Source: Hysterium pulicare CBS 123377
Taxonomy: Eukaryota; Ascomycota; Dothideomycetes; Hysteriales; Hysteriaceae
Assembly: GCA_000467715.1 (NCBI GenBank)
Contig: AJFK01000591.1
Span: 1 to 64,000, forward strand
Direction of reading: 5' to 3'
Length of the DNA: 64,000 bases
Position 1 is the first letter of the stretch. Each line of letters begins with the position of its first letter. Positions 6,290-34,651 of this stretch are shown here, piece by piece. The translations under genes were made by a program, and so were the position numbers. The notes below the pieces were generated by a model that ran no database searches, had not been told where the DNA came from, and was given only the letters and a program-made list of their open reading frames with translations.

Positions 6290-7372
6290 TACCACCTCAA
6301 GGTTGGGCTGGGAATTTGCCAGTGATCGATATCACCAATGCCACTGAGGCGTTTGAGACAGTGAATATTGGACTAGATGACGCCGAAGGGGGTGATTATG
6401 CAGCCCTGATCCCAGAGTTCAAGCTCAAAGAGAGTGCCAAGCTTGATGCTATAATCGCGCTGGAAGCAGGAATTGAGCCAGATGGGAATCTAAATGAGAC
6501 GCACGAGCTGAGCTAGGCATAAGATTTGATCTGGACGTAAGAGAAGAAGACGATAGAGAAATTGCGCTGGACAACTGCACCGAGCTGGATGGCAGAAGAA
6601 AGTTACATGACGAAACGAATATTGGTTCGGACTCTGTGTAAGTCTAAGCAGCCACGCAAGCCGAAGAAGTATAGCAGAGGTGGATAACGGCTTTAAGTCA
6701 TAAGAGCCAGACAAAAATTCTAAGCTGGAAGCGAGAACTAAGCTCGACGGATGGTAGATAGGCACCAATGTTGACGTGAAGATAGATCTGAATGCTAGAG
6801 CCAAGCGGATTGGGCTAGAGAAGAGCGCCGGTGTGATAAGCTGGATAGAGTTGCTGGATAGAGTTGCTGGATAGAGTTGCTGGATAGAGTTATTGAACTA
6901 GTGGGAGATGAAGCCAGCGTGGGGAATGACAGAGTAACTGTGCTTGAGTATTGAGCCTCTGCGCCTAGAGACGTTGCGGTCTGCGTTGAGATCTGCGCAC
7001 AGGAGGGAGCTGAAGTCTGCGTTGGAGTTTGTCGAATGGGGTAGATTGAAGCCTCCCAACTCGATAAGATCGATGGACGTGCATGCTGGATGACGAGGAA
7101 GCTGCTATGCTCGAGCTCCCGACCGGGGATGACAAGATCGATTGAGGCAGCCGTGCTCAATGACCTAGAGATTAGGGGAAAGCTCATAGCTGACGTTGAA
7201 GAAGATGGAGTTACTGTCGATGAGGCTAACCTGTCTGATGAGTTATTACTCCCACAGGAACCGAAACCTGTTTGGCAATCATTGCCGTAGTAGTCTTCTG
7301 TGAATCCGCAACATTCATGCTGATTTTGGAGTATCATCAGCCAAAGTACACATGATTTGGCACAGTATTGAG
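6290..7372 (-). pseudogene. Decayed secreted protein gene with a chitin-binding (ChtBD1/hevein-like) domain
   Basis: Reading the minus strand from about 7372, a frame holds ECCGFTEDYYGNDCQ followed by TGFGSC, which matches the second half of a type-1 chitin-binding domain (usual pattern CCGxTxDYCGxGCQxxFGxC); one conserved cysteine is Tyr here. A Ser/Thr-rich tail follows for about 150 residues. Further downstream the Ser-rich coding character continues to about 6290 but switches frame and meets stops (for example VQLSSAISLSSSSLTS near 6550). No signal peptide or first half of the domain is found upstream, where a hairpin element sits at 7403-7495. I read this as a broken host gene for a cell-wall or secreted chitin-binding protein. 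An unusual multi-intron gene is less likely. Confidence 0.55.
6840..6891. repeat. Four tandem 13-bp units
   Basis: The 13-mer GCTGGATAGAGTT is repeated four times head to tail without variation. The array sits within the Ser/Thr-rich part of the decayed chitin-binding gene, where 13 is not a multiple of three, so its expansion would have shifted the reading frame. Confidence 0.9.
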
Positions 7373-31324: not shown

Positions 31325-33742
31325 GAGTTGTGTCTGGGCCACGTAGTTGTGTTAAGTGAGGCGCTCCAGAGTTCAAAGATGAAGCCGCAATTGCAGCTCG
31401 ATGAATTTCTGAGCTAGGATTATCTATTATCCGGTCTACTTCGGAGCCATCGCACTATTATCCCCTCGAGTCATCCTCTTGCTCAAATTATACGCTCGAC
31501 GCCTGGCTTTGTATCTCACTTCGTCTCATGCAATTAAAATTTTGGACCAGCCGGGTCTTACCGAACACTACAACAATGGGCAAAGTTTACCCGTCAATTG
31601 AAGATCATCATGTAGATTTTATATTCTCAAACAATCCATTTTCTTCGTAGCTAGTGCTCCATTGGCTGGAAAGCATGTCACCCTTTCTTCAAAGGGACAT
31701 CTTGCTTGCTCCCTTGCATCCTTGGCGTGAACAGTGTCGCCTACCTCGATGCTACAGGCTCTGGTTGCGAGACTATGTGTATCTCATGTGTATCAGGACG
31801 GCAGGTGTGTACAGCAAAAGAGACATGGTATTGTCTGACCCTTAGGCTGTCAGGTGCAAACAATCTTACGGATTTGGCGTGCCTTTACTTGTTAAGCCAG
31901 GTGATACGGCAGAGGAAGAGAAATGTCTGGGATCGACCCAAGACTTTGAAACCGTACTACCATGGACAAGTGCGCTTCTCCCATGGAAGAGAAGAACGCG
32001 CTCTCGAGTTTGGAGGGTTTGGCAGGACTTCGGTGCATCAGGAGGGCACGAGGGCAGTGAATGTATGTTGAAGATTGGAAAGACTGGGCAAGAAGAATCG
32101 TGCGGCAGTGGGAGTCCTTGAGGGTTGGGATATTGATTGTCCTGATGGTGATACTCTTCAGAACGGGTGTCTTGGGCTTGCAACCCTAGGTTTAGTAGTT
32201 AAATGGGAGGCCGCTAATACCGTGGTCCTTTCTCATTCCTCGTGAACGAACGAGCGGAGAGTCTTGCACAGTGGTTAGAGCAACAGCTCAGAGAAAGTCA
32301 CGTGCCGCATGCTTAATCTTTCCATCGGTCCGTGAGCATACAAAAAAGGTGCGAGATACACACGGAGTGGCCGAGCACGATGCACATTTGCGGATCACTT
32401 CATCCCTTTCCCGTACGTCATGCTACTCTTATATTAATAGATGCCGCCGAAGCGACTTAGCAATCTACCTCATTTGAGCGCTTCATTCGCATCTCATCCT
32501 TCGAGCCTCCAAAAGTTCCAGAAATTCTCTTCGTCCTGCTTTCCTCGTCGTTATCTCTTCTGAACGCTTCAGGACATTGCACCATCATTTGCAATGGCCG
32601 GCTCATGCTGATGAGTTGGTGCGCTGCCTGATTGTTCATACTTCTTGAGGTCCACGTCGCGCTCTTGTGGCTGTACTAAATTTAGCCTCCAGGTCCAGGA
32701 CTCTCTTCCTGGCCTGCCTGGCATGCGTCTGTGTCTTTCAAATCCTGATGCTCCGTTACTCCAATGCGCAATATACTCTTAGTCAGTCCACCAGATATAC
32801 TCAAAATAACCTCTCTGAGATGAACTCATATAGACGCGTTACTGATTGGTAACTTCGGCCTTGCTCGCTTCCCACTTAGATGAGTCTGTCGTATCTTGCC
32901 GGCGGATCGACCTGGCGATCAAGCTTCGCTCGCATTTGCACTTTAACTACACGTCTCCCTACCCAAGTCTAGGCTCCAACTCCCCCTGCTAGCCCTTTCT
33001 ACCTGCCGTACCCTGGATTAGATGCTTGCAACTTCTGATAGTCTCTCCGCTGAAGCATTTCCCAACGTATCCGCATCTGCATCTCAATTTCCAGAGCATT
33101 CCCTTCCTGGAATCGATTCTTCCTCCTTCCTTGGAGTCCAATCCCTTACACTATCGGATACATGATTGTTCGAAGACCCAAACGTTGTCTAGCCCAACTA
33201 AAAGGTAATATATAGAAAATAAAGTTAATGGAGCGGTCATTAGCCATGTGTGACCGTTGTGTTTCGTCTGTCGAAGCACTGGGTAAGTCTTCTAGAGCCT
33301 GGCGACCAGACACATGCCTGACCACTCAATCGAACTGTTACCCGGGTACCTATGACAGCGTTGAAGAAGCCCTTGGCTTTCGCCGTGGACTGGTTTGAGA
33401 GCGACCGCCACCAACCTTCCCAGGAAACCTCAAACCAGTCAATATCGCTCGTTGACTAACTTTCTTGGAAAGTGGACTGCTCTGACGACCGCTGCACATG
33501 GTTTATCCAAATTGTCTATACGAAAGTCTGGCTACTTGAACACAAGACCAGAGTCTATTTTGTAGTGTCGCTGGGTCAACCTTTTCCGTTTGATTCTGAG
33601 TGGCAACTGTGTCACTCAAGATGAGAGAAGTATATGAAGGTGCTCCGTCCCGGCCTTTCATCGAAGACTTCTCTGTCATTAGTCTCGTCAGTTCTACTAC
33701 AAGTTGAAAGTCTTAGCTTCTTTAGTTGCCTTCATACCAATA
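31325..33742. other. 2.4-kb region without a recognised gene
   Basis: Lies between the SmF gene and the peptide-precursor gene. A plus-strand stretch near 31720-31860 reads as a Cys-rich segment (GCETMCISCVSGRQVCT) but has no Met, signal sequence or splice support. The right end must hold the promoter of the peptide precursor. An upstream ATG at 33634 opens a frame that overlaps the precursor start in another frame. Confidence 0.4.
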
Positions 33743-34651
33743 ATGTATTTGACCTTAGCAGCTGTGTTTGCCGCGGGCACTTTCTTAGCCGGTGTGGATG
33801 GTCTTCCTCGTCCCACTCAGGACTCCGAGGTATGAAGAAAGATTCTGAAACCTTTGGATACGCAAAACCATTGAACTGACATGATCACATAGTCAATAAT
33901 AGTTCCTGTTGACGGTGGGATTGTATCACTTGGTCAACCATCATCTACAACGACCTGGAGCGCTAAGAAACGAGAGCTAGATGCACAGAGCATTAGCTTC
34001 GGCGCTCCTCAGGGGCCAACACTAGGAAAGCCGGATACTACTGTTACCTGGGGTTCTGCTGAGAAACGAGATGCGAAGGCGCAAGGGATCAGCTTTGGTT
34101 CACCTCAAGGCCAAGGACCAACCCTTTCGAACCCATCGTCGACCATTACCTGGGGTTCTGTTGAGAAGCGGGATGCAGAGGCGCAAGGGATCGCCTTTGG
34201 TTCGCCGCAGAACCAGGGCCCGTCATTATCAAATCCGGGATCAACTACAACTTGGGGCTCAGGTGGGAAGCGTGAAGCAGATCCCCAAGTATTCGGGTTT
34301 GGTCCTTCGCAAGGTCCGACTCTCGGAAACCCGACATCGACTACGACTTGGGGCGAGAGCCAGAAGCGCGAAGCTGATGCTCAGACGCTTGGCTGGGGGC
34401 CATCCCAGGGACCACAGCTCGGAAACCCATCATCAACAATAACTTGGGACAAGAGTGAGAAACGCGAAGCAAATCCGCAAGGCCCAACGCTTGAGAATCC
34501 AAGCTCCACCGTCACTTGGGGAAATGGTGAACCAAATGGCGAACCTGCTCAAGGGCCGACGCTCGACAATCCTGATACAAGCGTAACATGGGATCCAAAG
34601 GACAAAAGGGAAGCTCCCGAAGACTTCTCCACGACCACCTTGCGCGAATGA
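33743..34651 (+). CDS. Secreted Kex2-type repeat peptide precursor (alpha-factor-like architecture)
   Basis: Two exons, 33743-33829 and 33893-34651, joined over a 63-nt intron with CTGAC, encode 281 aa. A signal peptide (MYLTLAAVFAAGTFLAGVDG) is followed by eight degenerate repeats containing P-x-(S/T)-T-x-T-W, for example NPSSTITW. Seven Lys-Arg sites lie at residues 55-56, 87-88, 121-122, 155-156, 187-188, 219-220 and 267-268. Each internal site is followed by Glu/Asp-Ala type dipeptides (EA, DA, then KA, EA, DP, DA or NP) up to a Gln, the pattern trimmed by Ste13-like dipeptidyl aminopeptidases in yeast alpha-factor. Predicted products are about 26-28 residues beginning with Gln. There is no cysteine in the mature repeats, so this is not the WCxxxGQxC-type ascomycete pheromone. 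The class (Kex2-processed repeat proteins) is known; this repeat I do not recognise. Function could be signalling, a surface peptide, or a RiPP precursor, though no UstY-type oxidase lies nearby. Confidence 0.85.

Follow-up and report, generated by a model that had tools for sequence, protein, structure and literature searches.

The stretch of DNA analysed here (the window) comprises the first 64,000 nucleotides of a contig of the ascomycete Hysterium pulicare CBS 123377 (contig C424, which spans window base 1 to 70,786). At positions 33743-34651 it carries a gene that is predicted to be composed of two exons and to encode a precursor protein built of repeats, the parts of which are as follows:

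33743-34651, forward strand: whole gene, two exons, 281-residue spliced product
33743-33829, forward strand: exon 1, with the start codon and a hydrophobic N-terminus that is likely to be a signal peptide (approximately residues 1-20), as judged from hydrophobicity
33830-33892, forward strand: predicted intron of 63 nt (GTATGA...CTGAC...ATAG), placed from splice and branch signals
33893-34651, forward strand: exon 2, the repeat region (252 codons plus stop)

Judged by its sequence signals the gene is real, and its intron is predicted from the splice and branch signals: it starts with GTATGA, ends with ATAG and contains the branch-site sequence CTGAC. If the intron were retained, the frame of exon 1 would read through to a stop one codon further on; upstream, a stop closes the same frame 21 codons ahead of the start codon, with no in-frame ATG between them. 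The coordinates, frame and 63-nt intron proposed in a first-pass annotation of the window are upheld by these features. The signal peptide is predicted from the hydrophobicity of the N-terminus, where the 11-residue mean reaches 2.14, and its n-region is devoid of Lys and Arg. The gene is present in a single copy: a protein search of its own genome (37.2 million bases, 596 contigs; E up to 10) returned just the gene itself, exon by exon. A search for 5.8S had no match. An out-of-frame open reading frame of 81 codons (33634-33879) starts 109 bases 5' of the ATG and extends across exon 1 into the intron; if it is transcribed, it may represent an upstream ORF. Elsewhere in the window, at 6840-6891, a perfect 13-bp unit is repeated four times (GCTGGATAGAGTT).

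The repeat region is punctuated by seven Lys-Arg pairs (KR), as had been reported in the first-pass annotation, and none of 20,000 shuffles of residues 21-281 (mean 0.42) reached this number. After six of the seven pairs, a four-residue spacer is followed by Gln (ELDA-Q, DAKA-Q, DAEA-Q, EADP-Q, EANP-Q and EADA-Q). In none of 100,000 shuffles did six of the seven KR pairs have Gln as the fifth residue after them, and none reached 11 Ala or Pro residues among the 12 Ste13-type positions either (the second and fourth residues after these six pairs, of which only the Leu of ELDA deviates), although the spacer and Gln positions had been picked with the sequence already in view. The seventh pair was excluded from the count of Ste13-type positions because no Gln follows it. 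Cleavage and trimming at these sites would yield the following products:

33893-33967, forward strand: remainder of the N-terminal segment, with motif copy 1 (PSSTTTW) and no Gln start
33986-34063, forward strand: predicted mature peptide 1, 26 aa, after KR-ELDA
34082-34165, forward strand: predicted mature peptide 2, 28 aa, after KR-DAKA
34184-34267, forward strand: predicted mature peptide 3, 28 aa, after KR-DAEA
34286-34363, forward strand: predicted mature peptide 4, 26 aa, after KR-EADP
34382-34459, forward strand: predicted mature peptide 5, 26 aa, after KR-EADA
34478-34603, forward strand: predicted mature peptide 6, 42 aa, after KR-EANP, with two motif copies and no inner KR
34610-34648, forward strand: C-terminal tail, 13 aa, after the seventh KR, with neither Gln start nor motif

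It had been claimed that every unit would release a peptide of about 26-28 residues starting with Gln. This applies to five of the six units with a spacer and Gln, the sixth giving a peptide of 42 aa, and it does not extend to the N-terminal segment or to the 13-aa tail, both of which lack the Gln start. Similarly, the Glu/Asp-Ala and X-Pro dipeptides described after the sites are found as stated, apart from the Leu in ELDA. The release of uniform peptides is thus not strict, because the units vary in length and sequence and one of them has no inner KR. In this last motif-bearing unit (34466-34603), two motif copies are joined by GNGEPNGEPA where a KR spacer would be expected, and the junction gives the impression of a lost cleavage site. 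The predicted peptides have a net charge of 0 to -1 (-6 for the 42-aa peptide) and are rich in Pro, Gly, Ser and Thr; in the protein, Pro and Gly together make up 62 of 261 residues, and there is no Cys and no Tyr after residue 20. For the pyroglutamate forms of peptides 1 to 6 the calculated monoisotopic masses are 2614.255, 2801.314, 2672.210, 2663.214, 2753.293 and 4387.963 Da.

Within the units, the core P-x-(S/T)-T-x-T-W is present in seven exact copies and in an eighth, PDTSVTW, in which a Thr is replaced by Ser, such that the eight repeats first assigned to the motif consist of seven strict copies and one near copy. One copy lies in the N-terminal segment, five in the units of 26-28 residues and two in the 42-residue unit. 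In a longer form the core reads QGPTLxNPxSTxTWG. In 20,000 shuffles the strict motif had a mean of 0.003 occurrences and was never found more than once. Comparison of the eight 16-codon cores gave a pS (silent changes, saturated) of 0.78 and a pN (amino-acid-changing) of 0.29; the seven motif codons gave corresponding values of 0.75 and 0.23, and the eight codons preceding the motif 0.81 and 0.35. As the silent sites are saturated and the amino acids conserved, we read the repeats as old and the peptide as kept by selection. The repeats were not detected by Tandem Repeats Finder (score 50), the DNA being too diverged. An AlphaFold model of exon 2 alone, made from the single sequence, placed strands in the repeats at low confidence (mean pLDDT 52.1).

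The full-length protein had no Pfam match at E up to 1, and a search of solved structures with exon 2 returned a single match at chance level (E 0.63). The core pattern was confirmed in none of 10 stretches from a viral collection (viral_contigs) and in none of 49 from a prokaryote collection (genome_contigs), which says little since neither is a fungal collection. In the gene's own genome the motif pattern was matched nine times (four in the control); six of the matches lie inside this gene and the other three (on C88, C171 and C486) fall in frames without such repeats. The spacer pattern KR-x-(A/P)-x-(A/P)-Q, which as searched also admits K-Ser, gave 190 matches against 165 in the control, and the eight places among the matches listed (seven reading KR and one not) included no repeat precursor; as a count of such genes in the genome this result is too weak. 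A literature search with the core strings matched only an unrelated adenovirus paper. The core is absent from the motifs printed as letters in the text consulted from two surveys of fungal repeat precursors (PMC6339444; PMC7329392) and may be included in their supplementary tables; passages of PMC7099791, PMC12048977 and PMC10182648, and the reference entry of PMC8329847, contain nothing on it. The published conserved motif YVW(G/A)(G/S) (PMC6339444) bears a loose likeness to the T-x-T-W-G-S found here.

KEX2-processed repeat proteins (KEPs) have been defined as having, among other features, three or more tandem repeats, each of 8 to 100 aa and bounded by KR, KK, RK or RR sites, alongside a repeat score of 0.6 (PMC7329392). 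The protein described here has six KR-bounded units of 30-46 aa, which agrees with the repeat number, length and sites of that definition. The KR-bounded units and the spacers bear out both the class proposed in the first-pass annotation, a Kex2-processed repeat protein, and the alpha-factor-like, Kex2/Ste13-type layout. Profile searches of the genome, in which match counts are lower bounds, found at least one match each to the Kex2-type P-domain (PF01483, on C434) and to DPPIV_N (PF00930, on C433); therefore enzymes of the kinds that the layout needs exist in the genome (candidate KEX2 and STE13). It is likely, in our view, that the gene encodes a filamentous-ascomycete KEP other than an alpha mating pheromone, from which linear peptides are released. 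The precursor would enter the secretory pathway, where a Kex2-type protease is expected to cleave after each Lys-Arg, given the seven sites, and a Kex1-type carboxypeptidase would then trim the Lys-Arg. On sequence grounds the fixed four-residue spacer matches the need of Ste13-type removal of two dipeptides, and a Ste13-type dipeptidyl aminopeptidase would thus take off two X-Ala/X-Pro dipeptides. The products would be linear peptides of 26-28 aa, the N-terminal Gln of which is probably converted to pyroglutamate. The ELDA spacer, as an incomplete Ste13 pair, counts against this reading, as do the lack of positive charge in the n-region, the unevenness of the units and the published link of the STE13 signature with pheromones. 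The functions of fungal KEPs are largely unknown (PMC9769878), and for these peptides the candidate roles are a signal between hyphae, a surface peptide and an action on other organisms.

The processing layout raises the question of a mating pheromone. KR followed by X-Ala/X-Pro dipeptides, a feature of alpha-pheromones, is present after six of the seven KR pairs (11 of 12 positions), the predicted peptides start with Gln, and in Ascomycota the STE13 signature is generally dedicated to alpha-pheromones only (PMC6339444). The two-cysteine core of the WCxxxGQxC type is absent from the product, which has no Cys after residue 20, and the earlier remark that there is no resemblance to such pheromones was correct. 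This absence is insufficient to exclude a pheromone, because the alpha-pheromones of Pleosporales, which have a PYGxPxG core, lack WCxxxGQxC as well, and pheromone cores can differ completely among lineages (PMC6339444). PYGxPxG, however, is absent from this protein and had 0 matches in the genome. Two-cysteine pheromones such as RFCHLPGQGCSK have been described (PMC6339444), and a separate precursor of this type (L010, 228 aa) was found on the reverse strand at C149:29752-30438. It has five GCHLVGQSC cores, each followed by Gly, one variant, CGMPGQPC, and Kex2-type sites, and from its cores and layout it is a putative alpha-pheromone precursor; its cores have no Trp ahead of the first Cys, and a literature search on this other core found no papers. 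The strict WCxxxGQxC pattern was matched four times in the genome (once in the control) and never within a repeat precursor, three of the matches lying in short frames without KR and the fourth (L008) in a short frame that has a lone KR and just one core. The relaxed two-cysteine pattern had 48 matches (22 in the control), of which 23 were viewed; one of the 23, on C149, was in a repeat precursor. The gene is therefore not the sole alpha-pheromone candidate of its genome. The pheromone receptor STE2 was found once, as two neighbouring exon matches belonging to one gene. Together with the two-cysteine precursor and the UstYa matches described below, STE2 points to a filamentous ascomycete. An alpha-pheromone was rejected as the main reading on account of the separate two-cysteine precursor and of the single STE2, and given that precursor this gene is most likely not a mating pheromone. 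It could still be a second alpha-type pheromone, sensed by STE2 beside the two-cysteine one, or one of unusual sequence as in Pleosporales; we regard this as decidedly improbable, as the predicted length of 26-28 aa also exceeds the alpha-pheromone range of 9-24 aa (PMC6339444).

Three further readings concern what the released peptides would become or do. The first-pass annotation held a modified, RiPP-type product to be conceivable, in view of the conserved Trp, and had noted that no UstY-like oxidase was in the window. Dikaritin precursors share the KEP architecture with this gene and the genome has 43 exon-level matches to UstYa (DUF3328), the oxidases that would cyclise the side chains of the core; none of the 43, though, lies on the gene's 70,786-base contig, so that the remark on the window holds for the whole contig and the suggestion of a modified product is weakened further. 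A UstYa gene within ~15 genes was taken as the mark of a dikaritin, and on C424 there is none. Where such a gene accompanies KEP genes the mean distance is 3.09 genes; one is found near just 22% of them, so that a KEP without UstYa is the usual case (PMC7329392). Pfam scanning of the neighbours covered 33 of the 68 ORFs of at least 120 aa in the window, and the families over the cut-off were GDE1-like, GDPD, ankyrin, SPX, G-patch, KA1, DNA ligase, RTP1, UNC-45, leucine-rich repeat, inositol polyphosphate kinase, Sen54, amino acid permease, MIX23, acetyltransferase, short-chain dehydrogenase, histidyl-tRNA synthetase and Rcd1; none among these 33 ORFs is suggestive of a peptide-modifying cluster or typical of a RiPP cluster. 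A phmmer search with the UNC-45-like neighbour returned distant matches only. With Ste13 spacers that suggest linear peptides and no Tyr after residue 20, a dikaritin-type precursor is very unlikely. Elsewhere in the genome, three UstYa matches on both strands lie within ~8 kb (C552:35707-43955), possibly a dikaritin cluster, and C299, C93 and C179 have several matches each, among which there may be exons that belong to a single gene. A surface-active or wall-associated peptide that assembles by way of its alternating T-x-T-W stretch, in the manner of the Rep1 repellents of Ustilago, would accord with this alternation of polar residues and Trp and with the strands modelled in the repeats; Rep1 is itself a KEP whose peptides build amyloid-like fibrils (PMC9769878). 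The model, however, is of low confidence and its sequence repetitive, which makes for weak evidence, and the abundance of Pro and Gly speaks against such assembly; we consider this role unlikely. The multi-peptide precursor with Kex2 sites would also suit a membrane-active or antimicrobial peptide, released as candidalysin is from Ece1. Candidalysin is an amphipathic helix, whereas neutral to acidic peptides with a high content of Pro, Gly, Ser and Thr are predicted here; a membrane-active role is therefore not suggested, and we give it scarcely any credence.

The KEP reading thus places the gene in a known class, to which is added the fact that its own genome also holds a separate alpha-pheromone-type precursor. 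We tentatively propose, as a possibility that falls well short of an even chance, that the product is a non-sexual peptide hormone with an undescribed core, made on a complete alpha-factor production line (Kex2, Kex1, Ste13 and Gln start) in a fungus that produces a classical two-cysteine alpha-pheromone as well. Being present once, with regular Ste13 spacers and exact predicted peptide masses, the gene offers a clean test case, and the alpha-pheromone-type precursor of the same genome serves as an internal control by which the use of a single processing line for mating could be told apart from its use for other purposes.

Amongst known systems, the precursors of ascomycete alpha-pheromones are similar in their KR sites, X-Ala/X-Pro spacers and Gln start, but the product described here has neither a two-cysteine nor a PYGxPxG core and its peptide is longer. 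The dikaritins (ustiloxin and phomopsin) are made from precursors with an N-terminal signal and Kex2-cut repeats, a layout that is predicted here too, whilst here the contig has no UstYa match and the repeats lack Tyr. In Ustilago maydis, the Rep1 repellents are Kex2-cut secreted peptides of 37 aa (PMC6339444), to which this predicted product is likened by layout. With KEPs in general, 7878 of which have been predicted in 1345 strains (PMC7329392), it has in common the hydrophobic N-terminus, the conserved repeated core and three or more repeats of 8-100 aa that are separated by Kex2 sites (PMC6339444; PMC7329392). In mushrooms (Agaricomycetes), linear KEP-derived peptides have been seen by mass spectrometry, many of them carrying pyroglutamate, and KEP precursors bearing Ste13 motifs are the source of some; in Coprinopsis, the loss of kep genes by deletion had no detectable phenotype (PMC9769878). 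These fungi belong to another phylum and their -AADW peptides are much shorter, the likeness being drawn from their description; nevertheless, Lentinula and Pleurotus have -AADW peptides with Ste13 spacers and a conserved Trp, and the Coprinopsis peptides carry pyroglutamate (PMC9769878), which is also the probable state of the peptides described here.
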